Part shown: positions 262-12,017 of the stretch, piece after piece
How positions within the stretch are numbered: the first letter of the stretch is position 1
Layout of the letters: every line of letters starts with the position of its first letter
Source of the DNA: a virus
DNA: 36,969 nucleotides
IMG/VR virus record: IMGVR_UViG_3300020465_000046
Coordinates: 1 to 36,969 of that record
Direction: 5' to 3' (one strand)
The notes under the pieces: model-generated
Databases searched by the model: none
Told to the model about the DNA's origin: nothing
The model's input: the letters and a program-made list of their open reading frames with translations, nothing else
Translations under genes and position numbers: made by a program

Positions 262-324
262 TTGTGGCAAACTATTTTTGTATATTGCCTTAATTTAACT
301 TCTATTTTGTGTATACTGGTTTTT

Positions 325-519
325 ATGGAAATTACAAAAAATAATTATTACAAATATTTTAAAAATCGTAAAGCTTGGAGAAATTTTAAGAAATTAAAAA
401 AAGCTAATCCGATTATTTTTAGTAAATATTATAAACCTGTTAAAAGTTCAATTTACAATCATTTAGGAATTTCAATTCATGGTGGTAAATCGAATAGATA
501 CAGTCATTATAATATCTAG
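325..519 (+). CDS. Small basic protein, unknown
   Basis: A 64-residue Lys/Asn/Tyr-rich protein starting at ATG 325. The frame stays open upstream to a TTG at 262, which would add a hydrophobic stretch of about 20 residues resembling a membrane anchor. Neither start has a Shine-Dalgarno sequence, and the upstream part is T-rich unlike neighbouring coding DNA, so the ATG was preferred. No family recognised. It is the first gene after the leader, followed at once by two tandem hairpins. Confidence 0.45.
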   Translation: MEITKNNYYKYFKNRKAWRNFKKLKKANPIIFSKYYKPVKSSIYNHLGISIHGGKSNRYSHYNI

Positions 520-566
520 TTTTTAATTAAGCTAGATTTATCAACCATAGATTTTAATTAATCTAT
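514..566 (+). promoter_or_regulatory. Tandem pair of look-alike hairpins
   Basis: Two inverted repeats follow each other. ATCTAG at 514-519 pairs with CTAGAT at 532-537, and ATAGATT at 547-553 pairs with AATCTAT at 560-566. Both carry TTTTAATTAA at or around the apex, so they look like two versions of one element. The first overlaps the stop codon of the preceding gene, and the second ends just before the ribosome binding site of the next gene. There is no U-tract, so they are not ordinary terminators; RNA processing, stability or protein binding are possible. Confidence 0.5.
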
Positions 567-585
567 ACAACTTGGAGTAGAAACT

Positions 586-783
586 ATGGCGTTATGGAAA
601 ACACCAAAAAAAACTATATTAATTAATCAAATAGATGTTAAATATAGAGAAATTGAAAACTTTGAATATCAATTTCAAGTATTAAGTAAAATTTTAGGAG
701 CATTTGAAATTAAAGACTTGGAAAAAATTTTGAAAGCTTGTAAAAAAGTACAAAAAATAGACCAAAAAGAAAACAACCAATAA
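586..783 (+). CDS. Small charged protein, unknown
   Basis: A 65-residue protein with a Lys-rich N-terminus and a helical, charged second half containing FEIKDLEKILKACKKVQKI, likely amphipathic or coiled-coil. TTGGAG about 10 bases upstream of ATG 586 supports the start. Not recognised; it could be a small host-interaction protein typical of early phage genes, which is an inference from position only. Confidence 0.6.
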   Translation: MALWKTPKKTILINQIDVKYREIENFEYQFQVLSKILGAFEIKDLEKILKACKKVQKIDQKENNQ

Positions 784-801
784 AATAGGAGAAAAAAAAC
801 T

Positions 802-903
802 ATGATATATTTTATCATAATACAACTTATAATTGTAGGTTATTTCGCTTATCTAGGAATATCTGCAACTAATGAAATAATAGATAAATATAATAATAAA
901 TAA
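802..903 (+). CDS. Membrane microprotein, 33 residues
   Basis: ATG 802 follows AGGAG at 787-791 and opens a 33-residue frame ending at TAA 901-903. Residues 2-22 are hydrophobic (IYFIIIQLIIVGYFAYLGI), so a single membrane helix with a short polar C-terminus is expected. It fills exactly the gap between two other small genes, each with an AGGAG-type ribosome binding site. Function unknown. Confidence 0.6.
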   Translation: MIYFIIIQLIIVGYFAYLGISATNEIIDKYNNK

Positions 904-925
904 TAATAAAATAGGAGAATAAAAA

Positions 926-1231
926 ATGACTACAGTTACAAATATGGTAAGTAATAAAGGAAATAAAATAGCAAATCAATTTATAATATACACCGATAAT
1001 GGAAGTATATTTCAAAGTTATAATAGTACCATTGTTAAAATAGATAGTGGTAAAACATATCTAGATATTAATAAATGGGATTACTCAAAAACTACTGGCA
1101 AATATAGAAATATATTTTTAAATGAGAATAAAAAACAAACTGAACAAAAAATAAAATCTGGAGAATATATATTGACTGATTTAAATATAGCTGGAACTGG
1201 AGCAGATTTTAACGAAGATAAAATACTTTAA
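926..1231 (+). CDS. Small phage protein, DUF8033-like
   Basis: A 101-residue protein preceded by AGGAG. The central part, with NQFIIYTDNGSIFQSYNS, then DSGKTYLDINKWDYSKTTGK and KKIKSGEY-like residues, resembles a small phage family I remember as DUF8033; the name is from memory and unverified. These proteins are common single-domain proteins in diverse phages and have no established role. No signal peptide or membrane segment. It is the last gene before a pair of overlapping inverted repeats. Confidence 0.6.
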   Translation: MTTVTNMVSNKGNKIANQFIIYTDNGSIFQSYNSTIVKIDSGKTYLDINKWDYSKTTGKYRNIFLNENKKQTEQKIKSGEYILTDLNIAGTGADFNEDKIL

Positions 1232-1232
1232 T

Positions 1233-1274
1233 ACAACTTTAAGTTGTGGTGGAACTAACTTAATTCTGCCACAA
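1233..1274 (+). promoter_or_regulatory. Two overlapping, mutually exclusive hairpins
   Basis: ACAACTT 1233-1239 and AAGTTGT 1241-1247 form a palindrome, able to fold as a 5-bp stem with a 5-base loop. TTGTGG 1244-1249 pairs with CCACAA 1269-1274, with an inner GAA/TTC pairing. The two structures share TTGT at 1244-1247, so only one can form at a time. No U-tract follows. It lies in the gap before the zincin gene at 1319 and could be an attenuator-like switch, an RNA processing site or a protein-binding palindrome. Confidence 0.4.
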
Positions 1275-1318
1275 TCTAAACAAAAAATAAACAAATAAAT
1301 ATGCAAGGATAATACACT

Positions 1319-1957
1319 ATGAAAAAATTAATATTATATCATAAAAGAAATATAGGAACTGGAGAGAAATATATAAATGAATTAGTGTATAGACATTTAA
1401 TAAACTTTACATTGGAGCAATTGATTTCTAAAAATTTAAAAAATAAATTAAGATTAAGAGTTTATTTTAGAAAAAAATCTCACTTTGATAAACAAACAGT
1501 TGGTTATTTGTTAACATCTGCAACTTCAAAAACAGTACCAATAAGAAATGCAAAAATGTATATAAGAATTGATATGAGTTTTTTAAATATAATTGAAACT
1601 ATTGCTCATGAATTAGTACACTTAAAACAATATGCAACTGGACAATTAAATAAAAGAATATGGAAGACTGACAATCAAGTACACTATCGTTGGGAGAAAA
1701 AAGAAATGGGAGTACAAGAAGCTATTGAATATAAAAATAGACCATGGGAGATTGAAGCATTTGCAAAACAATTTCCTTTAGTTGATAAGTGGACTAATTA
1801 TATAAAGACACCTAACTACTGGACTAAAGAAAACAAACTGGGTTTAATATGGGATGTAGTATTAGAGCAAGTTAGAAGAGAGTTAAAAGTACTAGAAGAA
1901 AAACAAACAAGCAAAGCTGGAAACCAAGAAAAAAGAAAACAATTAATAGGAGAATAA
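1319..1957 (+). CDS. SprT-like zincin metalloprotease
   Basis: A 212-residue protein with HELVH at residues 97-101, the HExxH zinc and catalytic signature, in the context ETIAHELVHLKQ. A downstream PWEIEA at 142-147 supplies a Glu suited to be the third zinc ligand. This arrangement is that of SprT-like/gluzincin domains found in many marine phages. The first 90 residues form a mixed alpha/beta lead-in; the C-terminal tail is Lys/Glu-rich and probably helical. Substrate unknown; takeover of host proteins or processing of DNA-protein crosslinks would be guesses. AAGGAT upstream supports ATG 1319. Confidence 0.75.
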   Translation: MKKLILYHKRNIGTGEKYINELVYRHLINFTLEQLISKNLKNKLRLRVYFRKKSHFDKQTVGYLLTSATSKTVPIRNAKMYIRIDMSFLNIIETIAHELVHLKQYATGQLNKRIWKTDNQVHYRWEKKEMGVQEAIEYKNRPWEIEAFAKQFPLVDKWTNYIKTPNYWTKENKLGLIWDVVLEQVRRELKVLEEKQTSKAGNQEKRKQLIGE

Positions 1958-1960
1958 ACT

Positions 1961-2326
1961 ATGAACTACAATAAACAAATAGCAATTAACAGTATGAAGT
2001 CTGATAAACTTTTAAATAAAAGTCATGTTAAAATGTATAAAAAACAATTAGAACAAATTAATAATACATTAGATTTTTTAAATTTTGAAATAGAATTACA
2101 TGAGAATTATGGTGATGAGTACACTTATAATGATACAGAAAAAAATCTTATGTTAAAAAATTATTCTTCTAGAAATCATTTTGAAACTTTAAAAAATAAA
2201 ATTCAAAATGAATTAAAGAAGAGTATAGAAATATCTAATAGAGAACTCTCATACTATTATGATAGTAAAACAAAAAAGTTGAGAGATAAATATATAAATG
2301 GAGACACTTATGGAACGACTAACTAA
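1961..2326 (+). CDS. Helical charged protein, unknown
   Basis: A 121-residue Lys/Asn/Glu-rich protein begins 3 bases after the metalloprotease stop, with TAGGAG just upstream. Residues 25-60 and 70-115 look like long helices with coiled-coil character. No family recognised. Its position points to co-transcription with the metalloprotease. Confidence 0.65.
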   Translation: MNYNKQIAINSMKSDKLLNKSHVKMYKKQLEQINNTLDFLNFEIELHENYGDEYTYNDTEKNLMLKNYSSRNHFETLKNKIQNELKKSIEISNRELSYYYDSKTKKLRDKYINGDTYGTTN

Positions 2327-2492
2327 AGAAGAGAGAAGAGCAATTATAAAATTCAATAGAGAGAATAGAAATATAGTTGCAGAAATAATAAATGATACAC
2401 CATTTACTCATACAACTGGAGGTGGTAGAACTGTAGAAAAACTTCCTACAATGGATGAGCAAGAAGGTACATTTAATCATGATGATAGATAA
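2310..2492 (+). CDS. Small charged protein, unknown
   Basis: Sixty residues beginning MERLTKEERRAIIKF. Start at ATG 2310 is preferred because GGAG at 2300-2303 lies 6 bases upstream; an in-frame ATG at 2298 would add four residues. It overlaps the preceding gene by 17 bases in another frame. N-terminal half is a basic amphipathic helix, the rest polar with a THTTGGGRT loop. No family recognised. Confidence 0.6.
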   Translation: MERLTKEERRAIIKFNRENRNIVAEIINDTPFTHTTGGGRTVEKLPTMDEQEGTFNHDDR

Positions 2493-2514
2493 AAAATAAA
2501 TAGGAGAATAAAAA

Positions 2515-2736
2515 ATGTTAGATAAATATTATGGTAAACAAGTTGAATTTGAGTGGCTTAAAATAAATTATGATGACAATGGTAAACCTTATAGACCATT
2601 AAGAATTGGTATTTTTTATGGGTTAAGTAAAGATAAAAACCATTTTAGAATAAGACCTTTATCTGGATATCATGGTTATAATACTAAGGTTGTTAAAATT
2701 CCAATTGAATTAATAAATATATTAGGAGAATATTAA
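2515..2736 (+). CDS. Small beta-rich protein, unknown
   Basis: A 73-residue protein with TAGGAG upstream. Alternating hydrophobic residues (VEFEWLKINY, LRIGIFYGLS, HFRIRPL, VVKIPIELI) suggest a small beta-barrel such as an SH3- or OB-like fold. It stops one base before the next gene, pointing to translation coupling with the GP88-like protein. Not recognised. Confidence 0.6.
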   Translation: MLDKYYGKQVEFEWLKINYDDNGKPYRPLRIGIFYGLSKDKNHFRIRPLSGYHGYNTKVVKIPIELINILGEY

Positions 2737-2737
2737 A

Positions 2738-3466
2738 ATGAAAAAACTATTAAGCTGGAAGAGACCAAATAAACTTTGCTTTAGAGAAGGCAACCCTAAG
2801 ACTGATAAGAATAAAAAGATTAAAGGGCTGGAGAACTATAGAATATTAAGATTAAATCTTGCTCCTGCTGATTTATCTGGATATAATGTTTGTCCAATGG
2901 CAAGTGTAGGTTGTAAATCTGCTTGTCTTCATACTGCTGGAAATCCAGTATATCAAAAGCAAAAAGATATTGGGAGAATAAATAGAACCAGATTTTATAT
3001 ACAAGCAAGAGTTGAATTCTTGAAACAACTTATGAGAGAAATAAAAAACCATGAGTTGTATTGTAATAAAAATAAATTAATACCAGTAGTTAGATTAAAT
3101 ACAACCAGCGATATATCATGGGAGATACATAATATATTTGAATTGTTTCCTAACATACAATTCTATGACTACACTAAGATATATAAGAGAGCAATTAAAT
3201 TTGTTAATGGTGAGTACCCTAAGAACTATCACCTAACATATAGTTTAAATGAAGACAATAAAGACTTAGCATTTAACATATTAAAAATGGGTGGAAATAT
3301 TTCTGCTGTATATAGAAATAATTTAGAAGACTTAAATAAATTTGGCTACAATGTAGTCAATGGAGACAACCACGACTTGAGATTTTTAGATAAAAGAAAT
3401 TCAATCGTAGGTTTAAAAGCAAAGGGCAAAGCTAAAACAGATTATTCTGGATTTGTTTTAGATTAA
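2738..3466 (+). CDS. GP88-like / DUF7227-type cysteine protein
   Basis: A 242-residue protein with a conserved-looking block at 38-70: LRLNLAPADLSGYNVC, then CPMASVGCKSACLHTAGN, containing Cys52, Cys59 and Cys63, followed by Arg-rich GRINRTRFYIQARVEF. This block resembles the phage 'gene product 88' family, whose Cys cluster suggests metal or Fe-S binding; no activity is established to my knowledge. The middle (VVRLNTTSDISWE, FYDYTKIYKRA) and end (VNGDNHDLRFLD) also match my memory of that family. AGGAG upstream supports ATG 2738. Confidence 0.7.
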   Translation: MKKLLSWKRPNKLCFREGNPKTDKNKKIKGLENYRILRLNLAPADLSGYNVCPMASVGCKSACLHTAGNPVYQKQKDIGRINRTRFYIQARVEFLKQLMREIKNHELYCNKNKLIPVVRLNTTSDISWEIHNIFELFPNIQFYDYTKIYKRAIKFVNGEYPKNYHLTYSLNEDNKDLAFNILKMGGNISAVYRNNLEDLNKFGYNVVNGDNHDLRFLDKRNSIVGLKAKGKAKTDYSGFVLD

Positions 3467-3492
3467 TTAATACAGATACAACTGGAGGATGT

Positions 3493-3711
3493 ATGACAAA
3501 ACCAAATCAATTTAAGGAAACAGAAAAACTATACAACTATTACAACTCACACGAGCATAGAGTTGAGAGAATAAAAGATGTAATGGATGAGTTAAAAAAT
3601 ATAAAAGATGTTAATCAATTCTTTAAATCTTTTTATTGGTATAGTAAGGAGTTAAGAAAAGAATTAGTGGCAAAAAAATATAAGAATACAATGTGGTATT
3701 GCCACGATTAA
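3493..3711 (+). CDS. Small charged protein, unknown
   Basis: Seventy-two residues, Lys/Glu/Tyr-rich, with a long helix (RVERIKDVMDELKNIKD) and an aromatic C-terminal half ending WYCHD. GGAGG upstream of ATG 3493. It is the last gene before the promoter-like region at 3713-3760. No family recognised. Confidence 0.6.
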   Translation: MTKPNQFKETEKLYNYYNSHEHRVERIKDVMDELKNIKDVNQFFKSFYWYSKELRKELVAKKYKNTMWYCHD

Positions 3712-3712
3712 G

Positions 3713-3760
3713 ACACAATTTTGTGTGGACATTGACACAATCTTATGGTAGAACAAATAT
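3713..3760 (+). promoter_or_regulatory. Promoter-like element (copy 1) with adjacent palindrome
   Basis: ACACAA-TT-TTGTGT at 3713-3726 is an operator-like inverted repeat. It abuts TGGACA at 3726-3731, a 17-bp spacer starting TTGACACAAT, then TAGAAC at 3749-3754 followed by AAATAT. The same element, nearly base for base, recurs at 6058-6091 with better boxes. An alternative -35 is TTGACA at 3732-3737. Downstream, AAAGGAGG introduces the gene at 3792. I read it as a host-type promoter for the second set of early genes. Confidence 0.5.
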
Positions 3761-3791
3761 AAAAAATAAATAAAATAAAGGAGGAAAAAAA

Positions 3792-3980
3792 ATGAGTGAA
3801 GAGTTTGGACAAGTATCTAATATATATAGATTAAGAAAAATATTAGAGAGAGCAGTTGAAAAAAAATTTAAAGATGATGTAACAATAACTGATAGTGGTA
3901 CATCTTTAAATGGTGAACAAGCAGATTTTGTTTTCAATTTAAATGGAGACAGATTTGAAATTAATATAAATAAAATATAA
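3792..3980 (+). CDS. Small protein, unknown
   Basis: A 62-residue protein with AAAGGAGG upstream of ATG 3792. N-terminal helix (YRLRKILERAVEKKF) followed by three predicted strands (DDVTITDSG, QADFVFNLNG, RFEINI), an alpha/beta layout. First gene after a promoter-like element. The antisense reading frame over the same bases has no ribosome binding site and was set aside. Confidence 0.65.
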   Translation: MSEEFGQVSNIYRLRKILERAVEKKFKDDVTITDSGTSLNGEQADFVFNLNGDRFEININKI

Positions 3981-3993
3981 GGAAGGAGAGAAC

Positions 3994-4269
3994 ATGACAA
4001 CACTTAATAAATATCTTAAGCATATGGAGATAGATAGTACTAGAAGATTACCAAGTGATATCTATAGACTAGCAGAAGAGACTTACTATTCTGAAAGTAG
4101 AGACAAAGAAATAAAAAAAGGAGACATGGATTTATTTCATTTGATTAGAGCATTAATAAAAAACTCTAATGAAAAATATCTATCAAGAGAACTAGATAAA
4201 ACAGAAAAACAAAATAGAAAACTAAAAAGAAAAGTTGAAAGATTAACTAACATAATCAAGGAGGATTAA
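3994..4269 (+). CDS. Coiled-coil protein, unknown
   Basis: A 91-residue protein; GGAAGGAGAG lies just before ATG 3994. The C-terminal 35 residues (SRELDKTEKQNRKLKRKVERL) form a strongly charged helix with leucine spacing typical of a coiled coil. It shares a single base with the next gene's start (TAATG). No family recognised. Confidence 0.65.
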   Translation: MTTLNKYLKHMEIDSTRRLPSDIYRLAEETYYSESRDKEIKKGDMDLFHLIRALIKNSNEKYLSRELDKTEKQNRKLKRKVERLTNIIKED

Positions 4270-4493
4270 TGAGTGATAAAAAAATGTTTAAGTTTGTTGG
4301 TAGTGAAATAAATTTAGGTGCAGAAACTATCAATGAAGAGATAGAGAGTAGAGGATATAAGAAAGCAGTTAAAAGTTTTCAAAATAAATATCCTAAAATT
4401 AAAGAGGTTATGGTTGAATGGATTAAGAATGGAATTAATCTATCTAAACTACAAAAACTTCCAATGGGTAGGAAGAAAAAACTGGAGGGTTAA
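4269..4493 (+). CDS. Small basic protein, unknown
   Basis: A 74-residue protein starting in a TAATG overlap, with AAGGAGG upstream. The C-terminus GRKKKLEG is basic and the middle (GYKKAVKSFQNKYPKIKEVMVEWI) is helical; DNA or RNA binding is possible but not shown. It ends in another TAATG overlap, so it is translationally coupled on both sides. Confidence 0.65.
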   Translation: MSDKKMFKFVGSEINLGAETINEEIESRGYKKAVKSFQNKYPKIKEVMVEWIKNGINLSKLQKLPMGRKKKLEG

Positions 4494-4843
4494 TGAAAGC
4501 AGATGACATAACAAAAGCAGTTGAGTATAAGCAAGGACATTTTAATATGGTACAATACTTATTAAAAGAAAAACCTAACTGGAGTATAACTGTTCATGAC
4601 AAGGAGACTGGAGAGACACCAGTTGAATATTCAAAAGACTATGAACAAATAAGAAAAGCAATTAAAGATTATGAGACTGAGATTGTAGTTTACCAAGAAC
4701 ATAAAAGACAGATAGGTTGGGCTTGGTTTATACCTTACAATGAAACAGATGAGGATATAGTTGCAGACTATTCAAATACTTTAAGCATGAACAAGTGGGC
4801 TGAACAATTTGAAGAGTTACATAAACAGTTGGAGGATAAATGA
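4493..4843 (+). CDS. Small acidic protein, unknown
   Basis: A 116-residue protein coupled to its neighbour by TAATG, with GGAGGG upstream. It begins MKADDITKAVEYKQGHFNMV, has a central Glu/Tyr-rich helix and a Trp-containing segment (IGWAWFIPYNETDED). It looks like a two-helix protein with a small sheet. No family recognised. It ends in an ATGA overlap with a membrane microprotein. Confidence 0.65.
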   Translation: MKADDITKAVEYKQGHFNMVQYLLKEKPNWSITVHDKETGETPVEYSKDYEQIRKAIKDYETEIVVYQEHKRQIGWAWFIPYNETDEDIVADYSNTLSMNKWAEQFEELHKQLEDK

Positions 4844-4932
4844 TAGAACTATTTTTAAATATGCCTTTAGATTTAAAGATAATAATACTAGCACCATTGA
4901 TAATGTTAGTATGGACTGAGTTAAGAAAATGA
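4840..4932 (+). CDS. Membrane microprotein, 30 residues
   Basis: ATG 4840 overlaps the preceding TGA (ATGA) and has GGAGG at 4831-4835. The 30 residues contain LKIIILAPLIMLVWTEL, a single membrane helix with a short charged tail. It ends in another ATGA overlap with the next gene at 4929. Tight coupling at both ends strongly supports a real gene despite its size. Function unknown. Confidence 0.7.
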   Translation: MIELFLNMPLDLKIIILAPLIMLVWTELRK

Positions 4933-5171
4933 ATAAGCAACAATATAAATTAAAACTAAATAAAGTTTTCGAGAGACAGTTAGAAATTAGAAAAATTATT
5001 TGGAAATTAATTTCAAAAATAAGTGATATGGAAAAACTACATACATCTAACTATGAGACTATTGAATACTTATTAGATGTTGCAGTTAACAATACAAAAA
5101 TTTCTAATAGTGTAGAGATTAATGGAACACTACCAGTTAGGAACAAAGTAGAAACAAAAGGAGGACAATGA
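4929..5171 (+). CDS. Helical protein, unknown
   Basis: An 80-residue protein starting in an ATGA overlap with the membrane microprotein before it. N-terminal two thirds are a Lys/Arg/Ile-rich helix (KLNKVFERQLEIRKIIWKLI) and likely coiled-coil. It ends with an ATGA overlap into the next gene. Not recognised. Confidence 0.6.
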   Translation: MNKQQYKLKLNKVFERQLEIRKIIWKLISKISDMEKLHTSNYETIEYLLDVAVNNTKISNSVEINGTLPVRNKVETKGGQ

Positions 5172-5335
5172 GTGAACAATTAGTGAACAGAAAAGAAGTT
5201 GAACATTGGTTAGGTAATAGTTATGAAGATTGGATTCATGATTTAATTTATAGATTAATAAATAAAAAAGTTTCAGTAGTAGAGTTGAGAGTTGAAATGA
5301 AACAAATGTACAAAGATTATAAGGAGGATAAATAA
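5168..5335 (+). CDS. Small protein, unknown
   Basis: Fifty-five residues from ATG 5168, which overlaps the upstream TGA, to TAA 5333-5335, which overlaps the next ATG (TAATG). AAGGAGG at 5159-5165 is the ribosome binding site. Sequence includes NRKEVEHWLGNSYEDWIHDL and a Val/Glu-rich helix. Perfect fit between neighbours supports it. No family recognised. Confidence 0.7.
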   Translation: MSEQLVNRKEVEHWLGNSYEDWIHDLIYRLINKKVSVVELRVEMKQMYKDYKEDK

Positions 5336-5529
5336 TGAGTGAACAAAGCACAATACATATAGTACTAAGAAAAGATAACAAGTGGGGTAGAACTTTATAC
5401 TACACTACTAAGAAAGAGGATGTGTGGTTGCCATTGATACACAATCAGCAATCATTAACTCAACATGATGTAGATTATTTAAAACAAACTGGAAGATTTA
5501 CATTTGAATTAATGAGAGAGGAGATATAA
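5335..5529 (+). CDS. Small beta-rich protein, unknown
   Basis: A 64-residue protein in a chain of TAATG overlaps, with AAGGAGG upstream. Strand-like segments (TIHIVLRKDN, RTLYYTTKKEDVWLPL) and a C-terminal helix are predicted by eye. No family recognised. Confidence 0.65.
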   Translation: MSEQSTIHIVLRKDNKWGRTLYYTTKKEDVWLPLIHNQQSLTQHDVDYLKQTGRFTFELMREEI

Positions 5530-5711
5530 TGATAGTAAAAGACTTAATAAAAAGATTAAAGAAAATGCCACAAACAAAAGAGGTATATTTTTTTAATCAC
5601 CATAACGAGAGATTATATAGTTTGGATGAGGGAGTTTGGAATATACCAAATGAAAAAGATAAATCTCAAACTTATGTTAATTGGGTAGAGATAGCTGGAA
5701 AGATAATGTAA
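5529..5711 (+). CDS. Small protein, unknown
   Basis: Sixty residues, coupled by TAATG to both neighbours, GAGGAG upstream of ATG 5529. It begins with a basic helix (VKDLIKRLKKMPQTKEVYFF) followed by short strands; the pattern 'LIKxLKKMPxxxEV' is common in small phage proteins of unknown function. No further call possible. Confidence 0.6.
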   Translation: MIVKDLIKRLKKMPQTKEVYFFNHHNERLYSLDEGVWNIPNEKDKSQTYVNWVEIAGKIM

Positions 5712-5878
5712 TGTACTTTATTATTTGGAAACAAAAAAATAAATATAGAATGTATAGTAATCAAATCTTTTCTAAAGAAGAAGACGCATTAGAATTTGCA
5801 AAGAAAAGTTTTAAAAGAAAAGATGAATGGAAGGTTGTTGATTATAATAGTGAGAACTATGATAAGTATTGGTATTAG
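5711..5878 (+). CDS. Small protein, unknown
   Basis: Fifty-five residues from ATG 5711, which overlaps the preceding TAA; GGA precedes it. A longer frame from TTG 5681 exists but lacks support. Sequence MYFIIWKQKNKYRMYSNQIF, then a helix with EEDALEFAKKSF and a strand EWKVVDY, suggests a small alpha/beta domain. It is the last gene of this cluster before the 214-base regulatory gap. Confidence 0.6.
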   Translation: MYFIIWKQKNKYRMYSNQIFSKEEDALEFAKKSFKRKDEWKVVDYNSENYDKYWY

Positions 5879-5880
5879 TT

Positions 5881-5941
5881 TATATATATAATTAGAAATA
5901 GTAATGTTGTTGTTATTAATAAACCTAATTATTTATATATA
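5881..5941 (+). promoter_or_regulatory. Long AT hairpin after the first gene cluster
   Basis: The 5' arm ATATATAATTAG ends at 5895 and pairs with CTAATTATTTATAT starting at 5925; inner segments also pair around a GTTGTTGTT apex. It follows the last gene of the first cluster. The stem is almost only A-T pairs and no U-tract follows, so I cannot call it a terminator; it may end or stabilise the upstream message. Confidence 0.4.
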
Positions 5942-6003
5942 CTATAATAAAAAGATTTATAATAGAACATTAATACAACATAGTATTAGTGTGTCGTTAT
6001 GTC

Positions 6004-6034
6004 GCATATGTTAATACAAATTAATTTCATATGC
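6004..6034 (+). promoter_or_regulatory. Nested perfect inverted repeat upstream of promoter copy 2
   Basis: GCATATG at 6004-6010 pairs perfectly with CATATGC at 6028-6034, and inside it TTAAT 6011-6015 pairs with ATTAA 6020-6024 around an ACAA loop. GCATATG also contains the self-palindrome CATATG. Eight bases further on lies TTGACA at 6042. It may be a hairpin ending upstream transcription or a binding site for a regulator acting on the promoter at 6058-6086. Confidence 0.45.
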
Positions 6035-6057
6035 CTTATTGTTGACAAACTTTCGTG

Positions 6058-6091
6058 TTGACTTTGACACAATGTTTTAGTATACAAATAT
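6058..6091 (+). promoter_or_regulatory. Sigma70-like promoter (copy 2), apparently leaderless
   Basis: TTGACT 6058-6063, a 17-bp spacer starting TTGACACAAT, and TATACA 6081-6086 followed by AATAT. The block matches 3726-3760 with a few substitutions and a one-base gap. The ATG of the next gene is at 6093, six bases after the -10, where +1 would be expected, and no Shine-Dalgarno sequence precedes it. So the first transcript from here is probably leaderless. TTGACA at 6042 and 6064 are further -35-like boxes. Confidence 0.55.
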
Positions 6092-6092
6092 T

Positions 6093-6293
6093 ATGACTTT
6101 AAATAATAGAATAAGAAATGAAATATATAGACAGGCACAAAATAATACTTTGTATGCTTGGACAACAAGACTAATTCAAAGACATAGACTTCTTGATTTA
6201 ACAAGAATACCTTTGAATCAAATGGATGCTAATCACAGAAGTTTAATAAGTGATTTAGCATGGGAAGAAATAAGAAGACAACAACAAAGATAG
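6093..6293 (+). CDS. Small basic protein, probably from a leaderless mRNA
   Basis: A 66-residue Arg/Gln-rich protein: MTLNNRIRNEIYRQAQNN then LYAWTTRLIQRHRLLDLTR. Mostly helical and basic, so nucleic-acid binding is possible. ATG 6093 lacks a ribosome binding site and lies where transcription from the promoter at 6058-6086 should begin. No family recognised. It would be the first product made from this promoter. Confidence 0.6.
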   Translation: MTLNNRIRNEIYRQAQNNTLYAWTTRLIQRHRLLDLTRIPLNQMDANHRSLISDLAWEEIRRQQQR

Positions 6294-6302
6294 GAGAAAC
6301 AA

Positions 6303-6791
6303 ATGCATAAGTATAATAAGAGTACTACTAAATATAAAGATGTATCTAATGATGATAATATATTTAAAAAGTTAGATAAACTTTATGATGAAACAAATGA
6401 TGTACAAACTATTAGAGATTGTGAAAGTTTATTTCCAACTCTTGCTCATTTAAGTATGCCCTCTATGTGTTGTGGTTGGGTAAGTGAAGAACACTTTAAT
6501 AATCTATTAGAGAAATATAAAATAGATTTAACACCTTATGTTAAAGATGATGAACGAATTACTACCTCTATTAAATCTGAGATAGCAGATGAAATGTTTA
6601 AGTTAGTAGAGACTGGTAAGTATAAGAAAAGAAACTTAATCAAAGTGTTGCGAGAGAAGTTTAAAGATGTTAATGCTGGAGTGATACATAGATTAATTAA
6701 AAAGAATATGGACTTGAGAATACTGGAGATAGATAGAACATATAAAACAAAACCTTATGTGATTAAAGGTAAGTACTATATAGGAGGATGA
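6303..6791 (+). CDS. Protein with possible C-terminal winged helix, unknown
   Basis: A 162-residue protein with AGGAG before ATG 6303. A central segment has PTLAHLSMPSMCCGW, with paired cysteines. Residues 95-140 (KSEIADEMFKLVETGKYKKR, NLIKVLREKFKD, VIHRLIKK) look like a helix-turn-helix series. No family recognised. It ends at a TGA directly followed by the next start codon. Confidence 0.6.
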   Translation: MHKYNKSTTKYKDVSNDDNIFKKLDKLYDETNDVQTIRDCESLFPTLAHLSMPSMCCGWVSEEHFNNLLEKYKIDLTPYVKDDERITTSIKSEIADEMFKLVETGKYKKRNLIKVLREKFKDVNAGVIHRLIKKNMDLRILEIDRTYKTKPYVIKGKYYIGG

Positions 6792-7025
6792 ATGAAAACA
6801 ATAACACAAATTAAAAAACATTTTAGTGAAGAGGAATTAAAACTACTCATTGAAATAGTTAAAGGTAAGCAAGACTTTGAAGTTATGGGTGAACAGATAA
6901 AAGATTTTTATTCTGATGAATATAATGAGAGTGACTTAACAAATAAAGATGATGACTATGACTGGTTGAGAGAAGACTTGCTTGAAAAGTTAGAGTTTGA
7001 TTTAGAAACAGGAGGAGTAATATAA
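6792..7025 (+). CDS. Small acidic protein, unknown
   Basis: A 77-residue, strongly acidic protein (many Asp/Glu in the last 35 residues, including NKDDDYDWLREDLLEKLEF). GGAGG precedes ATG 6792. Its acidity resembles DNA-mimic proteins such as anti-restriction proteins, but that is only a compositional resemblance. It ends in a TAATG overlap with the small helix-turn-helix gene. Confidence 0.6.
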   Translation: MKTITQIKKHFSEEELKLLIEIVKGKQDFEVMGEQIKDFYSDEYNESDLTNKDDDYDWLREDLLEKLEFDLETGGVI

Positions 7026-7168
7026 TGCCGATAAGAAAAACAGTAGGACAGTTGCTAGTAGAAAATCATTGGAGTGTACAAAGACTAGCAGTAGCAATTA
7101 ATATAACTAAGGAGGATATAAAAAAATGGGCAAGGTTAAACAAGCGATACAAGAAGTACAAGAGATAG
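7025..7168 (+). CDS. Small helix-turn-helix protein, 47 residues
   Basis: ATG 7025 overlaps the upstream TAA and opens 47 residues ending at TAG 7166-7168. Residues 17-35 (SVQRLAVAINITKEDIKKWA) fit a helix-turn-helix in which the second helix follows an NIT turn, and the tail RLNKRYKKYKR is very basic. This suggests a minimal DNA-binding regulator. It overlaps the next gene by 43 bases, unusually long here, and its ribosome binding site (AGGAG) is close. Target unknown. Confidence 0.5.
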   Translation: MPIRKTVGQLLVENHWSVQRLAVAINITKEDIKKWARLNKRYKKYKR

Positions 7169-7377
7169 TATACTGGTATGTACAAGGTAATAGAGATATT
7201 AGTTTACCAGATGTACAAACTTTACTATTTAAAAAACATTTAATGAAAGATAATGCTAACCCATATCTTGTTGATGAGAGAGTTGTTAAGGATGCATACA
7301 ACAAAGCAGTATGGGAGAGAGATAATGAAGAGGAGTATGAGTTAAGAACTCATTATCAAAGAGAGGAGGTGCTATGA
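7126..7377 (+). CDS. Small charged protein, unknown
   Basis: An 83-residue protein. AAGGAGG at 7111-7117 supports ATG 7126. It is helical and charged (KQAIQEVQEIVYWYVQGNRD, VVKDAYNKAVWERDNEEEY). It starts inside the end of the helix-turn-helix gene in a different frame and ends in an ATGA overlap with the next gene. No family recognised. Confidence 0.65.
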   Translation: MGKVKQAIQEVQEIVYWYVQGNRDISLPDVQTLLFKKHLMKDNANPYLVDERVVKDAYNKAVWERDNEEEYELRTHYQREEVL

Positions 7378-7556
7378 TAAATAAAATATTAACAGAGCAT
7401 GAATTATTAAAGAGATTAGATAATGAATTTGATGATGTTGATTTTGAAATAAGAGATTGTGCAACAAAAGGTGTTGTTGCTACAGTTTATTTTCATGAGA
7501 AAAAAATTGATTCAAGATGTTATAGTCAATTAAGTGGAGGTAAAAATGATGAGTAA
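7374..7556 (+). CDS. Small acidic protein, unknown
   Basis: Sixty residues, starting in an ATGA overlap with GAGGAGG upstream. Pattern of helix (EHELLKRLDNEFDDVD) and strands (FEIRDCA, GVVATVYFHEKKIDSR). No family recognised. The end overlaps the following membrane microprotein. Confidence 0.6.
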   Translation: MINKILTEHELLKRLDNEFDDVDFEIRDCATKGVVATVYFHEKKIDSRCYSQLSGGKNDE

Positions 7557-7638
7557 GTTTAAAGTATGGAGTTTATATTACAGACAAGAAATCATTTGGT
7601 TTGTAGTAGGATTTATATTAGGAGTGATAGTAGGATGA
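7546..7638 (+). CDS. Membrane microprotein, 30 residues
   Basis: GGAGG at 7536-7540 precedes ATG 7546 (a second ATG follows at 7549). The 30 residues include YYRQEIIWFVVGFILGVIVG, a basic/aromatic lead-in and a membrane helix ending at the C-terminus. Similar short 'EIxWFxxGFxxG' proteins are familiar from marine phages. It ends in an ATGA overlap with the next gene. Function unknown. Confidence 0.65.
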   Translation: MMSKFKVWSLYYRQEIIWFVVGFILGVIVG

Positions 7639-7883
7639 AAACATATAGAGTATGGGCTTATGAAACAGTAGGATATTATGTTGACATAAGAGCAATTAAT
7701 AAACATGAAGCATATACTAAAGCTATGGATGTTAATGTATTAGATTGGGAACAAGAGCAAGATAAAAACAGAACTGATTTAAACATAAAGAAAAAAGATA
7801 TAGAAGAAATAAAAAGTAATGTAGTTAAATTAAAAACTTGGACTGAAGGTTATAATGAGTGGAAGAAAAGTAAGAGTAAATAA
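7635..7883 (+). CDS. Small protein, unknown
   Basis: Eighty-two residues from ATG 7635 in an ATGA overlap with the microprotein; the frame is open further upstream to 7566 but that part lies inside the microprotein gene. N-terminus KTYRVWAYETVGYYVDIRA with a following EAYTKAMD helix looks like the small 'xYEVxxYETVxxxxxIxAxxxxEA' alpha/beta proteins seen in many phages and bacteria. C-terminal half is Lys-rich and helical. Confidence 0.6.
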   Translation: MKTYRVWAYETVGYYVDIRAINKHEAYTKAMDVNVLDWEQEQDKNRTDLNIKKKDIEEIKSNVVKLKTWTEGYNEWKKSKSK

Positions 7884-8160
7884 AGCAATCTTTGGAAAGA
7901 AATTATTTAATTCAAGGATTGAGTTAGAATTATATAGGAGGTATGAAGTAATGAAGTTAGATAAGAACTTGGTTGATGATGTACATCAAGCAGTAGGTAG
8001 AGCAGAGGGTTATATACCATGTGATACTGCAGAGGAAGAGATAGGAGCATGGCAATACTTAATTGATACTGGTGTTGCTTGGAAATTACAAGGTTGGTTT
8101 GGAAGACAAGCACAATTTTTAATTGATAATAAAATATGTAGGGAAAAGGTTGTGAACTAA
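7855..8160 (+). CDS. Small phage protein, DUF7417-like
   Basis: One hundred and one residues from ATG 7855, or 69 from ATG 7951, which has AGGAGG at 7936-7941. The later start fits the ribosome binding site best, but would leave a 67-base gap in a gap-free operon. The C-terminal part (DDVHQAVGRAEGYIPC, AWQYLIDTGVAWKLQGWFGR) resembles a phage family I recall as DUF7417, without known function; the N-terminal 32 residues are basic. Confidence 0.6.
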   Translation: MSGRKVRVNKAIFGKKLFNSRIELELYRRYEVMKLDKNLVDDVHQAVGRAEGYIPCDTAEEEIGAWQYLIDTGVAWKLQGWFGRQAQFLIDNKICREKVVN

Positions 8161-8168
8161 AGTAAAAC

Positions 8169-8336
8169 ATGGTATATATAAATATGATTTGGAAAAAAAT
8201 AATAGTAAGATTGCGTATGTGGTACGCAGATATAAGAGGACATCATGGAAAAAAATGGGATTATGAACCTAGTGAATGGTATATGGGAAGACATAATAAA
8301 ATTAATAAAGAAAAAAAAGGAGAAAATAATGAGTAA
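8169..8336 (+). CDS. Small basic protein, unknown
   Basis: Fifty-five residues from ATG 8169 to TAA 8334-8336, overlapping the next gene by 8 bases (ATGAGTAA). Begins with a basic/hydrophobic segment (MIWKKIIVRLRMWYADIRGH) then HHGKKWDYEPSEWYMGRHNK. The aromatic, basic make-up suggests membrane-surface or nucleic-acid contact. No good ribosome binding site is seen. Confidence 0.55.
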   Translation: MVYINMIWKKIIVRLRMWYADIRGHHGKKWDYEPSEWYMGRHNKINKEKKGENNE

Positions 8337-8556
8337 TAAACCAATAAAAAAATATGTAGTTATGACTAAATTTAAATCTCAAGATAGATTTATGTTAGAA
8401 AAACAATTTGTAAACAGACATAGTGCTGACCATTATGCAAAGCTAATGACTGAAGCTAAAGACTATGATGATATAGAATACTTTTTGTTTGAGCAGTCTC
8501 ATGACTATCAAGATAATAGTCCAATGGAAGACTTAAAGGATGTTGTTAATGGATGA
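8329..8556 (+). CDS. Small protein, unknown
   Basis: Seventy-five residues from ATG 8329, chosen because AAGGAG lies about 8 bases upstream; the frame is open further up to 8245 but that would bury it in the previous gene. Strand-helix pattern: KKYVVMTKFKSQDRFMLEKQF then ADHYAKLMTEA. Resembles small alpha/beta domains built around a 'YxVMxxF' strand. No family recognised. Confidence 0.6.
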   Translation: MSNKPIKKYVVMTKFKSQDRFMLEKQFVNRHSADHYAKLMTEAKDYDDIEYFLFEQSHDYQDNSPMEDLKDVVNG

Positions 8557-8746
8557 TGATTATCTTTTAACATTTAGTAAAGATTTAAGAGAAGCTATTA
8601 AAAAGAAAGTAAAAAAATCTGATAGAGGTTATCATGATTTAGAAGAAACCATTTACAGATTAGAACAAGAAATAAAATTTTTAAAAGCTGAAGTAAAATA
8701 TGAAAGAGAACTAAGATTGAAAGGAGCAAAGTACCACAATGGGTAG
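8549..8746 (+). CDS. Coiled-coil protein, unknown
   Basis: Sixty-five residues from ATG 8549, overlapping the upstream stop (ATGGATGA) with AAGGA nearby. Residues 30-60 (DLEETIYRLEQEIKFLKAEV) have heptad spacing of hydrophobic residues, so a dimeric coiled coil is likely. The end overlaps the LexA-like gene by 8 bases. Function unknown. Confidence 0.6.
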   Translation: MDDDYLLTFSKDLREAIKKKVKKSDRGYHDLEETIYRLEQEIKFLKAEVKYERELRLKGAKYHNG

Positions 8747-8987
8747 TAACTATAAGTGGTTAGACAAAAATATGTTAACACCAAGACAATTAAAACTTTT
8801 TAATTATTTAAAAGAATATAAAAAAGAAAATAATTATATGCCTACATTTAAAGATATGATGAAACACATGAATATAAAATCATCACATGGTATTCACCAG
8901 ATGTTAGGTTATATAGAATGGAAAGGTTATATTAAAAAACATCCAGCAATGGCAAGAGCAATAGAAATATTAAAGGAGGTAGCTTGA
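8739..8987 (+). CDS. Orphan LexA-type winged-helix DNA-binding protein
   Basis: An 82-residue protein. Residues 12-79 follow the LexA N-terminal domain pattern: LTPRQLKLFNYLKEY, ENNYMPTFKDMMKHMNI, SSHGIHQMLGYIEWKGYI, KKHPAMARAIEI. The last block corresponds to the wing and the 'xxRAIEL' end typical of LexA. The autocleavage peptidase domain is missing, so it cannot self-cleave like LexA; it is probably a simple repressor or an anti-SOS competitor. AAGGAG precedes ATG 8739. Candidate targets are the palindromes near promoters in this window. Confidence 0.75.
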   Translation: MGSNYKWLDKNMLTPRQLKLFNYLKEYKKENNYMPTFKDMMKHMNIKSSHGIHQMLGYIEWKGYIKKHPAMARAIEILKEVA

Positions 8988-9208
8988 TGACAAAGAAAAA
9001 GAAAAAAGAAATAGTAAGACATGAAGATTGTGGACATGAAGAAGATAAATTAAATTCTGTTTATATGTTTCATCATACTAAACATGACTTACATTTATTT
9101 ATTAATGCACACTACTTAGATGAAGCAATGGCTAAGTTTGATTTGTGTAATTTTAAAGATAGAAAAGACTGGAAGATTTTCTTAGAGTGTGGACATCAAC
9201 CAGCATAA
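8987..9208 (+). CDS. Small His/Lys-rich protein, unknown
   Basis: Seventy-three residues from ATG 8987, sharing a base with the upstream TGA; AAGGAGG upstream. Begins with a poly-lysine run (MTKKKKKEIVRHEDCGHEED) and contains many His and Cys (HEDCGHE, MFHHTKHDLHLF, LECGHQ), so metal binding is possible. No family recognised. Confidence 0.6.
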   Translation: MTKKKKKEIVRHEDCGHEEDKLNSVYMFHHTKHDLHLFINAHYLDEAMAKFDLCNFKDRKDWKIFLECGHQPA

Positions 9209-9246
9209 TAACAATACAACTTATAGGTGAAAGGAACAAACAAAAT

Positions 9247-9378
9247 ATGTCTAAACCATTGATATCATTGACTAATAAATATTTTATTTCAATGTTCACT
9301 TGGCAAATGTTTATCTGTATAATAGAGATACTGTCTTCTAATAAGACAGCAATTCACAATACAAAAAACATTTTATAG
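9247..9378 (+). CDS. Membrane microprotein, 43 residues
   Basis: ATG 9247 has AAGGAA about 10 bases upstream. Residues 10-30 (KYFISMFTWQMFICIIEILS) are hydrophobic, indicating one membrane helix. The frame can be extended to GTG 9187 but that overlaps the preceding gene. Function unknown. Confidence 0.45.
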   Translation: MSKPLISLTNKYFISMFTWQMFICIIEILSSNKTAIHNTKNIL

Positions 9379-9387
9379 GACATATCA

Positions 9388-9651
9388 ATGAGTAATAAAT
9401 TCTTTTTAAAAAAATCTTGGGTCAATGTAGATGTATGCGTTGAAGATTATTACAACTCAGGCACAACACTTGAACAAGTAAAAGAGAATTTAAAATGGAG
9501 TCCTTATTCTAACATAGTAAGTAGAGATGTTAAACTTACTAGACATACTGTTGAGGAGATAAATGAAGAAACATACAAAGAGAAGGTCAAAAAATCCAAT
9601 GGCTTATCTTCTAAGGAAAAGGCAGTATCAGTTAAAGATTGTAAAGAATAA
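9388..9651 (+). CDS. Small protein, unknown
   Basis: Eighty-seven residues; TAGGA precedes ATG 9388. N-terminal half holds KKSWVNVDVCVEDYYNSGTT and a helix; the C-terminal half is Lys/Glu-rich (ETYKEKVKKSNGLSSKEKA) and probably disordered. No family recognised. Confidence 0.6.
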   Translation: MSNKFFLKKSWVNVDVCVEDYYNSGTTLEQVKENLKWSPYSNIVSRDVKLTRHTVEEINEETYKEKVKKSNGLSSKEKAVSVKDCKE

Positions 9652-9706
9652 GAAAAGAAAACTCATGGAAAAATTGTTTGATAAAATGAAATATGATACT
9701 CAATAA
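9599..9706 (+). CDS. Possible basic microprotein, 35 residues
   Basis: ATG 9599 to TAA 9704-9706 encodes MAYLLRKRQYQLKIVKNKKR followed by a short helix. It bridges the genes at 9388 and 9693, overlapping both in another frame. AGAAGG is upstream but rather far (about 12 bases). The overlaps make this a low-confidence call. Confidence 0.3.
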   Translation: MAYLLRKRQYQLKIVKNKKRKLMEKLFDKMKYDTQ

Positions 9707-10076
9707 AGAAATCCCAGCAGGAATAAACTATAGTCAAGGTGAAGGTTCAGCTATAACACCATGTGTTTTATTATATAGGTGTGTTATAGTTAGAGCAATC
9801 ATGGATGGACTTGATGTTGACATTCATGCGTGGGGTAATGCTAGAGAAAACATTATCAAAGATGCAATCGCATGGTTTTCTTTAGAGGATGACCAATACA
9901 AATTAGTTTGTGACTATGCAAACTTAGACCCATCATTTATAATTAAAAAGTTTAACCAATTGAAAGATGCTAACGCAAAGAAATTGTTTAGAAATAAAAA
10001 TCTAAATAAATTCTTGACGCATTATATTTGTAGCTTTCATGAAGACCCAGCAACAAGGAATAGTTTCAATGGCTAA
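9693..10076 (+). CDS. Conserved marine-phage-type protein, unknown function
   Basis: A 127-residue protein: GINYSQGEGSAITPCVLLYR, CVIVRAIMDGLDVDI, IIKDAIAWFSLEDDQYKLVC, DYANLDPSFIIKKF. I remember proteins with this arrangement from marine podoviruses, always small and near replication genes, with no assigned role. The DYANLDP segment suggests a helix-turn-helix-like end. It overlaps the following nuclease-like gene by 8 bases. Confidence 0.65.
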   Translation: MILNKEIPAGINYSQGEGSAITPCVLLYRCVIVRAIMDGLDVDIHAWGNARENIIKDAIAWFSLEDDQYKLVCDYANLDPSFIIKKFNQLKDANAKKLFRNKNLNKFLTHYICSFHEDPATRNSFNG

Positions 10077-10449
10077 GAATACAAAGTTTGATTTAGATTT
10101 AGAGTATGGACAGATAAGAGAAAAGAGAATAGAGAACTTACTTAAAGGTGGTAAGATAGAAATTAAAACAGAGAGAAGCTGGTGGAGAAAGACTGGCAAC
10201 ATAGCAATAGAGTATGAGTATAGAGACAAACCAAGTGGTATATTTAAAACAGAATCTAAATGGTGGTTTCATGTTTTAGAAATAGAAAACAATGAACATT
10301 GTATGTTAGTCTTTAGAGTATCAAGATTAAAAAAGATAGTTAATAAATATAAGAAGACACATACAAAAAACATAGGAGATTATAGAGCAAGTAAATGTGT
10401 TGTTATACCTATTAAAGAATTGTTTACTGAAGGGTGTTATAAAATATAA
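10069..10449 (+). CDS. Resolvase/PD-(D/E)XK nuclease-like protein
   Basis: A 126-residue protein from ATG 10069 (AAGGAA about 10 bases upstream; an in-frame ATG at 10039 would add 10 residues). FDLDLEYGQIREKRIENLL is a typical N-terminal helix with an acidic residue; KIEIKTERSWWRKTGNIAIE gives an E-x-K pair followed by a strand, as in small PD-(D/E)XK nucleases and Holliday-junction resolvases. Family size (120-140 residues) fits. A role in genome processing or host DNA degradation is inferred from this and its place ahead of the replication genes. Confidence 0.6.
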   Translation: MAKNTKFDLDLEYGQIREKRIENLLKGGKIEIKTERSWWRKTGNIAIEYEYRDKPSGIFKTESKWWFHVLEIENNEHCMLVFRVSRLKKIVNKYKKTHTKNIGDYRASKCVVIPIKELFTEGCYKI

Positions 10450-10451
10450 TT

Positions 10452-10904
10452 ATGGACAAGAGCAAAGATATACAAGACGCAATAAAATTATATAAAGACC
10501 AAGAGATATGGAAACTTATGACTAACAAAGAGTTAGCTGACTATTTAATTCCATGTATAGCTTTAAATCAATATCATATATTTAGATATGAAACTACTGG
10601 TGTTGCTTATGCTATAACTAACTGGGCATTTCTAAGTGATGAAGCACAAGAAAGATTTAAAAAGACTGGAGTATTAAAAAGATTTGATTGGGATAGTGGT
10701 AAGAATGTATGGCATATAGATACTATTAACAATCATAAAGGTTGGATAAATAAAATTTATGCATGGACAGCAAAACATTTTCCAACTTTCTTAGATGGAG
10801 AAGAGTATGTTAATTGGATAAGATTAACTAAATCAGGTAATGCAATTAAAAGAATAAATAGAATTAAAGTAAAAGATGGGGTGAAAAAATTTTTAAATGA
10901 GTGA
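10452..10904 (+). CDS. HlyC-like (RTX toxin-activating type) lysine acyltransferase
   Basis: A 150-residue protein whose body follows HlyC/ApxC toxin acyltransferases: LIPCIALNQYHIFRY, then VAYAITNWAFLSDEAQERF, WDSGKNVWHIDTINNHKGW, KHFPTF and a final strand-rich RINRIKVK. HlyC enzymes use acyl-ACP to modify internal lysines of RTX toxins. Asp90 in HID aligns with the catalytic Asp of HlyC, but the expected N-terminal His (in a SPLH-like motif) is not seen; the N-terminus is shorter. No RTX toxin is in the window, so the target is unknown. Related proteins occur in marine phages. Confidence 0.7.
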   Translation: MDKSKDIQDAIKLYKDQEIWKLMTNKELADYLIPCIALNQYHIFRYETTGVAYAITNWAFLSDEAQERFKKTGVLKRFDWDSGKNVWHIDTINNHKGWINKIYAWTAKHFPTFLDGEEYVNWIRLTKSGNAIKRINRIKVKDGVKKFLNE

Positions 10905-11229
10905 GAAAGATTTAATAAGAGAATATAAGAATACTATTGCATCATTAACACAAGAAAAAAATGATGCAGTAAAACTGGCTTCGGAAAAAGATTCTAAGAT
11001 AAAACAATTACTTATTCAAATTGAGAACTGTAATGGTGATACTCAAATTATGGGTAAAAAAATTGCTGAACTAGAATCTAAACTAAAGAAGAAACATAAA
11101 ATCAAAAGAGTAATAGATGAAAAGATAACAGAAATCCTTGAAAACACTAGCGATTCTGAGGAAAAAAAAGATGATACAAGTGTTGACAAGGAGGGGTCTG
11201 ATATGTTAAAAGATGTCTATGAAAAATGA
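10897..11229 (+). CDS. Coiled-coil protein with acidic tail, unknown
   Basis: A 110-residue protein overlapping the acyltransferase end by 8 bases (ATGAGTGA). Residues 5-75 form a nearly unbroken charged helix (EYKNTIASLTQEKNDAVKLA, KIAELESKLKKKHKIKRV) with coiled-coil spacing; the last 30 residues are acidic (SDSEEKKDDTSVDKEGSD). It may be a partner of a neighbouring protein; no function can be assigned. Confidence 0.6.
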   Translation: MSEKDLIREYKNTIASLTQEKNDAVKLASEKDSKIKQLLIQIENCNGDTQIMGKKIAELESKLKKKHKIKRVIDEKITEILENTSDSEEKKDDTSVDKEGSDMLKDVYEK

Positions 11230-11256
11230 TAAACTTAAAAACAACAAAGGACAATA

Positions 11257-11343
11257 ATGTCTTGGTTAATATATAAAACAAAAGTGGTAGGCACATATAC
11301 TTTTATTTACGCACAAAAGTTATGGGGTTTACTACCATTTTAA
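11257..11343 (+). CDS. Possible microprotein, 28 residues
   Basis: ATG 11257, with AAAGGAC upstream, encodes 28 residues (MSWLIYKTKVVGTYTFIYAQ then KLWGLLPF) ending at TAA 11341-11343. It is aromatic and hydrophobic without a clear membrane helix. It fills the otherwise empty 138-base gap before the SSB gene. Moderate support only. Confidence 0.45.
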   Translation: MSWLIYKTKVVGTYTFIYAQKLWGLLPF

Positions 11344-11367
11344 CAATAACAATAAAGGAAAAAACAT

Positions 11368-11826
11368 ATGGCGATAATTGAAGGCACAGCATACTGGGCT
11401 TCTCTGACACGACCAAACGAAAAGTTTGAACCTATGTGGAGAATTGATTTAGCAGTTGATTCTAAAGACGCAGAGGATTTTAAAGGTCAAGGAATATCAG
11501 TAGCCGAAACAACTGTTGATGAAAAAACAATATCTAATATAATTAGATTTAAAAGAAAAGTAAGTAAAGCTAATGGCGATAAGAATACTCAACCACAATT
11601 AGTGGATGCAGATAAGAAACCATTAGAAAAAATAGTCGGTAATGGAAGTAGAGTTAAGGTAATGTATAAACCTTATGAGTGGAACTTCAAAGGTAAGAAG
11701 GGAATAGGGTTAGACCTACAAGCTGTCCAAGTACTAGACTTAATAGAGTACACACCAAGAGAAGACTTTGATGTTGAATCTGGAAATACTTCTAATGGAA
11801 GTGTTGACAACATTAAAGAATTTTAG
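11368..11826 (+). CDS. Single-stranded DNA-binding protein, T7 gp2.5-like
   Basis: A 152-residue protein starting EGTAYWASLTRPNEKFEPMW, the opening of an OB fold seen in phage gp2.5/DUF2815-type SSBs, followed by IIRFKRKVSK, NGSRVKVMYKPYEWNFKGKK and GIGLDLQAVQVLDL strands. The C-terminal tail is acidic and ends in Phe (GNTSNGSVDNIKEF), as in T7 gp2.5, where the tail docks on polymerase and primase-helicase. Both partners are encoded next. AAAGGA precedes ATG 11368. The last codons contain the -35 of a promoter. Confidence 0.85.
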   Translation: MAIIEGTAYWASLTRPNEKFEPMWRIDLAVDSKDAEDFKGQGISVAETTVDEKTISNIIRFKRKVSKANGDKNTQPQLVDADKKPLEKIVGNGSRVKVMYKPYEWNFKGKKGIGLDLQAVQVLDLIEYTPREDFDVESGNTSNGSVDNIKEF

Positions 11827-11832
11827 TATAGT
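11804..11832 (+). promoter_or_regulatory. Sigma70 promoter at the 3' end of the SSB gene
   Basis: TTGACA 11804-11809, a spacer of exactly 17 bp, and TATAGT 11827-11832: 11 of 12 consensus bases. The -35 lies in the last SSB codons and the -10 begins immediately after the stop codon. Transcription would start near 11838, giving a short structured RNA that meets a terminator at 11874-11911. It is thus either the promoter of a small RNA or the attenuated promoter of the replication genes. Confidence 0.65.
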
Positions 11833-11836
11833 TACG

Positions 11837-11911: not shown

Positions 11912-11914
11912 ATT

Positions 11915-12007: not shown

Positions 12008-12017
12008 AAAGGAATTT

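Follow-up and report, generated by a model that had tools for sequence, protein, structure and literature searches.

Few phage messages are known to be leaderless. The cI mRNA of phage lambda made from the maintenance promoter is leaderless, and it is a phage mRNA beginning at AUG, as we predict for ORF66, a 66-residue gene in the DNA described here. Sister pelagiphages have a small LexA-like regulator in this configuration. ORF66 itself is no recognisable repressor, and its transcription start is predicted from the sequence. Among the alphaproteobacteria, 171 leaderless start sites are given for Sinorhizobium meliloti in the excerpted text of PMC3616915. These transcripts start on the A of the AUG, as predicted here; they belong to chromosomal genes with starts mapped by RNA sequencing, whereas the start of ORF66 is a prediction (PMC3616915, excerpt). 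The acuR operon (acuR-acuI-dddL) of Rhodobacter sphaeroides is also described as leaderless, and lambda cI is named there as well (PMC3017554, excerpt). This too is an alphaproteobacterial system with the promoter-proximal gene at the 5' AUG of the transcript, but it is a host operon with a mapped start and a TetR-family regulator, whereas ORF66 is a phage gene with a predicted start (PMC3017554, excerpt). We found no published leaderless pelagiphage genes; in the pelagiphage papers which contain the word "leaderless" it occurs only in the title of a cited gene-prediction work.

The second group of related systems consists of the Pho-box promoters of the E. coli Pho regulon and of cyanophages, in which 11-bp direct repeats end 10 nt before the -10, as they do here; the site under study scores poorly on a matrix made from E. 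coli Pho genes. Cyanophage genes have been placed under host PhoBR control (PMC10976474, excerpt), and in infections with the pelagiphage HTVC027P the host expresses phoB and pst more strongly (PMC12753301, excerpt). The word "promoter" is absent from the excerpt of the latter source.

The DNA analyzed is a virus record of 36,969 bases, taken at its full length and referred to below as the window. In the early region and the primase it most closely resembles Pelagibacter phages HTVC103P and HTVC104P, and by sequence the window phage is an HTVC103P-type pelagiphage, a SAR11 phage type that has been named (PMC10504331, excerpt). We consider it likely that ORF66 is the leaderless first gene of an operon led by Shine-Dalgarno (SD) sites, and that it is expressed from a regulated promoter of the host polymerase. 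The features of the locus are:

6031–6070, + strand: four heptamers, ATGCCTT (6031–6037), TTGACAA (6042–6048), TCGTGTT (6053–6059, degenerate) and TTGACAC (6064–6070).
6058–6063, + strand: TTGACT, the -35 hexamer of the original prediction, read from the sequence.
6081–6086, + strand: -10 hexamer TATACA, after a 17-nt spacer from TTGACT.
6093, + strand: predicted transcription start, the A of the ATG, 7 nt past the last base of the -10 and with T at -1.
6093–6293, + strand: ORF66, a small basic helical protein of 66 aa; its homologue, gp19 of HTVC104P, is 95% identical.
6292–6302, + strand: AGGAG, the SD of the following gene, with its spacer; this stretch overlaps the stop codon of ORF66.
6303–6791, + strand: SD-led downstream gene of 162 aa, which directly follows the promoter region in loci L128 and L129.

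The original prediction held that TATACA ends at 6086, that the ATG at 6093 stands at the expected +1, and that this ATG has no SD; all of this was confirmed in the sequence. The -10 ends six bases before the start codon, AATATT (6087–6092) lying between the two, and the usual +1 lies 7 nt beyond the end of a -10 hexamer. No SD-like match of at least 3 nt was found 3–13 nt before the ATG. An in-frame TAG (6078–6080) precedes it, which excludes an upstream ATG, GTG or TTG start for ORF66. The 214-nt gap upstream of 6093 is non-coding and contains a conserved hairpin. About 75 bp at 5868–5945, past the upstream gene, are near-invariant in the window, HTVC103P, HTVC104P and several contigs; this stretch is more conserved than its flanks, folds into a long A/U-rich hairpin and gave no match in Rfam.

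The claim that almost every other gene in the cluster has an AGGAG-type site proved too strong, while the lack of an SD at ORF66 stood. In the early gene cluster (262–11229) an anti-SD match of at least 4 nt precedes 30 of the 38 candidate starts, and in the whole window it precedes 50 of the 69 starts listed, both sets of starts being of our own choosing. Unlike 6093, most SD-less starts elsewhere in the window overlap or abut the previous gene. T occupies position -1 in all 18 listed leaderless-type starts versus 7 of 23 SD-led window starts, which is what one would expect were the A of the ATG the purine at which transcription initiates.

Taken alone, the hexamers are unremarkable and at chance level, so that comparative evidence is needed. 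A promoter scanner returned 28 promoter-like sites in 4000–9000 versus 32.0 expected; the final A of its -10 kept the TTGACT/TATACA pair off this list. For ATG ORFs of at least 60 aa within 1–18208 of the window, hexamers matching at 4/6 and 4/6 or better lie 5–7 nt before the ATG in 7 of 108 cases (base rate, 4.2% of positions), and those matching at 5/6 and 4/6 in 1 of 108 (base rate, 0.63%).

ORF66 looks coding. Its codon score is 0.428, the highest of 1000 shuffles reaching 0.391, and comparison with gp19 gives a pN of 0.022 and a pS of 0.120. Beyond gp19 no relatives were found in 50,697 phage records or in viral contigs; family searches gave no match in PHROGs or NCBIfam, and the best Pfam hit (E 0.086) fell below the cut-off. 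Neither a recognisable helix-turn-helix (HTH) nor a LexA-like or cI-like repressor family was found in PHROGs, NCBIfam, Pfam or among PDB folds. A single-sequence structure model shows three helices, with modest confidence (mean pLDDT 72.8), and matches no PDB fold. Over its first 60 nt (6093–6152) the mRNA has a predicted minimum free energy of 0 kcal/mol, the shuffles averaging -1.44, and in this folding model the 5' end of the message looks unstructured. In HTVC104P the deposited start of gp20 (L002:3757-3801) overlaps the ORF66 homologue; the HTVC103P homologue and the SD suggest that the true start of gp20 is 14 codons later.

The alignment of the gap upstream of 6093 takes in HTVC104P, HTVC103P and loci L005, L006, L007, L128, L129 and L131. 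The hexamer at the -10 position is TAGAAA in HTVC104P, TATGAA in HTVC103P, TATGAT in L128 and L129, and TATAGA in L131; L005 and L006 have poor versions at the position matching 6081–6086, and in L007 a one-base deletion displaces the register. Of the -35/-10 promoter proposed originally, the -10 register is therefore kept in most relatives and the -35 is not: TTGACT (6058–6063) reads TAGACT in HTVC104P and HTVC103P, and being unconserved it was dropped as the -35 that matters and is probably not a conserved determinant.

HTVC104P shares genome type and promoter region with the window, and it has the ORF66 gene, as gp19, at the matching position. HTVC103P also has this genome type and promoter region, but ORF66 is missing; in this phage and in L005–L007 the promoter runs into an SD-led gene of another family. 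L128 and L129, likewise without ORF66, have an SD-led relative of 6303–6791 behind the promoter, and in L131 a different short ORF comes first. Since the ORF66-less relatives examined pass from the promoter to an SD-led gene, ORF66 sits between the predicted start and the next leader.

The heptamers at 6031–6070 are spaced by 11 bp and the array ends 10 nt upstream of the -10, a distance which follows from how the motif was aligned. Sites of this promoter type share TTGnCAC-like heptamers every 11 bp. Over 18 non-redundant sites from a total of 28 (L307 being additionally left out as its upstream sequence is missing), the heptamer match at offset -11, which lies outside the 27-mer used for finding the sites, is 4.28 of 6 versus 2.00 in shuffles, 0 of 5000 of which reach it; at offset -22 it is 3.28. 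As judged from these alignments, conservation probably resides in the heptamers with their 11-bp spacing, more than in TTGACT, and the array at 6031–6070 is a probable regulator-binding site. A palindrome, TTGTGT-N8-ACACAA, was also considered as the operator and rejected: by eye it is perfect in HTVC104P, it is not general, and direct repeats fit more sites.

Using a Pho-box matrix derived from E. coli Pho-gene upstream regions, which were chosen by a consensus sequence, we found that the sites of L293, L308, L323 and L147 outscore all 73,904 positions of the window. The window site itself (6053–6070) scores -1.3 and ranks 1439 of 73,904. In its sequence the site family has the architecture of a PhoB/OmpR-type promoter; the sites of some relatives are Pho-box-like, and the window site does not score as a Pho box. 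The best window match to this matrix is at 1255–1272 (CTAACTTAATTCTGCCAC), 46 nt before the gene at 1319 and with no clear -10.

A matrix built from eight relatives, with the window excluded, gives two strong matches in the window, at 6060 (27.8) and 3728 (19.3), the best score in six simulated windows being 12.4. The second match has an ordinary leader with AAAGGAGG, and constitutes a leadered counterpart inside the same window:

3699–3754, + strand: second promoter, with four 11-bp-spaced heptamers and -10 TAGAAC (3749–3754), leading the SD-led gene 3792–3980.

HTVC103P and HTVC104P have an array similar to window 3699–3754 near 2449–2503.

In several pelagiphage contigs the motif stands immediately before a LexA-like gene of 70–74 aa. 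Genes of this kind with the -10 ending 5–6 nt before the ATG are:

L133:1459-1715, LexA-like gene.
L140:1469-1722, LexA-like gene.
L142:1468-1716, LexA-like gene.
L293:764-1009, LexA-like gene.
L323:766-1004, LexA-like gene.

These five are probable leaderless regulators, to judge by the position of the motif, and LexA-like starts at 5–6 nt usually have an in-frame stop just upstream of the ATG. At a threshold of at least 15 bits the motif occurs in 26 distinct contexts in 121 loci (530,645 bases), many of which were fetched as LexA relatives. When a gene of at least 40 aa is required, the -10 lies 5–6 nt before an ATG that has no real SD in 15 of the 26 (13 LexA-like, 2 ORF66); the matrix was trained on 15 such sites, so that matrices and counts share sites. 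Single contexts have the ATG at 9 nt and at 2 nt (L131). Another six have an interval of 24–37 nt with an AAGGAG-type SD. The remaining three lie 91–93 nt from a LexA-like gene, but have an ORF of 27–28 aa starting 5–6 nt after the -10; two of these are ambiguous, as AAGGAG begins inside the -10. None of the 26 contexts has the ATG at 10–23 nt.

A less circular test used a matrix trained on four sites all judged SD-led (L003, L128, L131 and window 3728), although in L131, treated as SD-led, an ATG also follows the -10 at 2 nt. It was applied to 34 non-redundant LexA-like upstream regions drawn from 77 in 80 loci, with L307, L314 and L322 excluded as too short. Seven of the 34 exceed the 99% null, and in these the -10 lies 5, 5, 5, 5, 6, 6 and 9 nt from the ATG; the LexA-like upstream regions are related, and so are not independent events. 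A matrix from five LexA-like sites places 6060 first in the window (14.1 versus 13.5 for the runner-up), while with eleven such sites the window site comes fifth at 7.6, inside the null. Given these weak scores, the link between the window site and the LexA-like ones is not direct but runs by way of the leadered sites.

Right behind the same promoter type, L147:801-884, L290 and L300 have a conserved hydrophobic ORF of 27–28 aa (MNEKFLL.../MNKEFLL...); related peptides of 27–28 aa occur in L277, L280, L283, L284 and L287 without the promoter in the stretch shown. In L139, L140 and L144, sequence resembling a hairpin plus T-run (GCTTTTTTAAGC type) stands just before the promoter of the LexA-like gene, and may serve to terminate transcription of the genes ahead of it. 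A strict motif scan returned 16 viral stretches, mostly unlike the window phage, two of them being the contigs of L128 and L129. It also returned 84 bacterial or archaeal stretches, no title of which names Pelagibacter or SAR11, so there is no sign of the strict motif being a host motif. The first 20 kb (of 57.6) of HTVC027P have no motif match above 7.2, and the first 12 kb of HTVC115P have a single one, scoring 15.1, which no clear gene follows.

In the leaderless reading which we favour, 6031–6092 would be a promoter for the RNA polymerase of the host, under the control of a DNA-binding regulator specific for the 11-bp-spaced repeats. We infer use of the host enzyme because the annotation of HTVC103P and HTVC104P lists no RNA polymerase gene within their first 50 kb. 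Transcription would start at or within 1–2 nt of 6093, the mRNA would begin with the AUG of ORF66 and have no leader, ribosomes would read this 5'-terminal AUG directly, and the message would run on into genes with ordinary SD sites. As a prediction, the leaderless mRNA put forward originally is supported by the conservation of the block in relatives and the recurrence of the motif-ATG spacing elsewhere. The -10 of HTVC104P, which holds the only other copy of ORF66, is weak (TAGAAA).

The gap before 6093 has no terminator-like site that we could find and carries a promoter-like site, TTAATA-16-TATACT, at 5916–5943, so longer transcripts may exist too. ORF66 might then be translated from such a transcript without an SD, by a standby or S1 route helped by A/U-rich RNA, the transcript arising by read-through from genes before 5878 or from a promoter in the gap. 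The 19 of 69 listed window starts which have no SD match of at least 4 nt agree with this, but most of the others overlap or abut the previous gene whereas ORF66 follows 214 nt of non-coding DNA, and the distance of 5–9 nt between motif and ATG in all seven LexA-like matches is left unexplained; we regard this explanation as unlikely. In a further alternative the promoter is TTGACA (6064–6069) with AATATT (6087–6092), a pair which at 10/12 outscores the one originally proposed and whose TTGACA is conserved in HTVC104P. RNA would then start near 6099, inside ORF66, and serve only the downstream SD-led genes. This is highly improbable, in that the relatives have no -10 at that register, most of them having TAnnnT-like hexamers at 6081–6086, and ORF66 is under coding constraint with no other plausible start. 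Least probable of all is chance, that is, that ORF66 is no gene or that the contact between promoter and ATG is coincidental in A/T-rich DNA. The chance level of the hexamers alone would fit, as would the lack of a family match above a curated cut-off and of a structural match for the single-sequence model; the coding signal, the copy in HTVC104P and the reappearance of this spacing before genes of other families argue against it.

Phages of the most abundant marine bacteria show this arrangement repeatedly, and its recurrence across several gene families within one phage group is the more interesting part. HTVC104P has been cultured on HTCC7211, which makes the leaderless prediction testable. 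Should a host regulator bind the repeats, these promoters would couple phage gene expression to the nutrient state of the host. A broader and doubtful proposal, which we offer tentatively from the sequence comparisons, is that a group of SAR11 phages fuses one type of regulated promoter (11-bp-spaced, Pho-box-like repeats plus a -10) onto start codons, so that a single host response regulator, possibly PhoB, switches on leaderless mRNAs. It is equally speculative that this would cover a set of small genes, namely the LexA-like regulators, ORF66 and the 27–28-aa membrane peptide. Were it true, phage gene output would depend on host phosphate state and on the supply of 70S ribosomes and initiator tRNA, and the promoter would act as a cassette which takes new genes at its transcription start.
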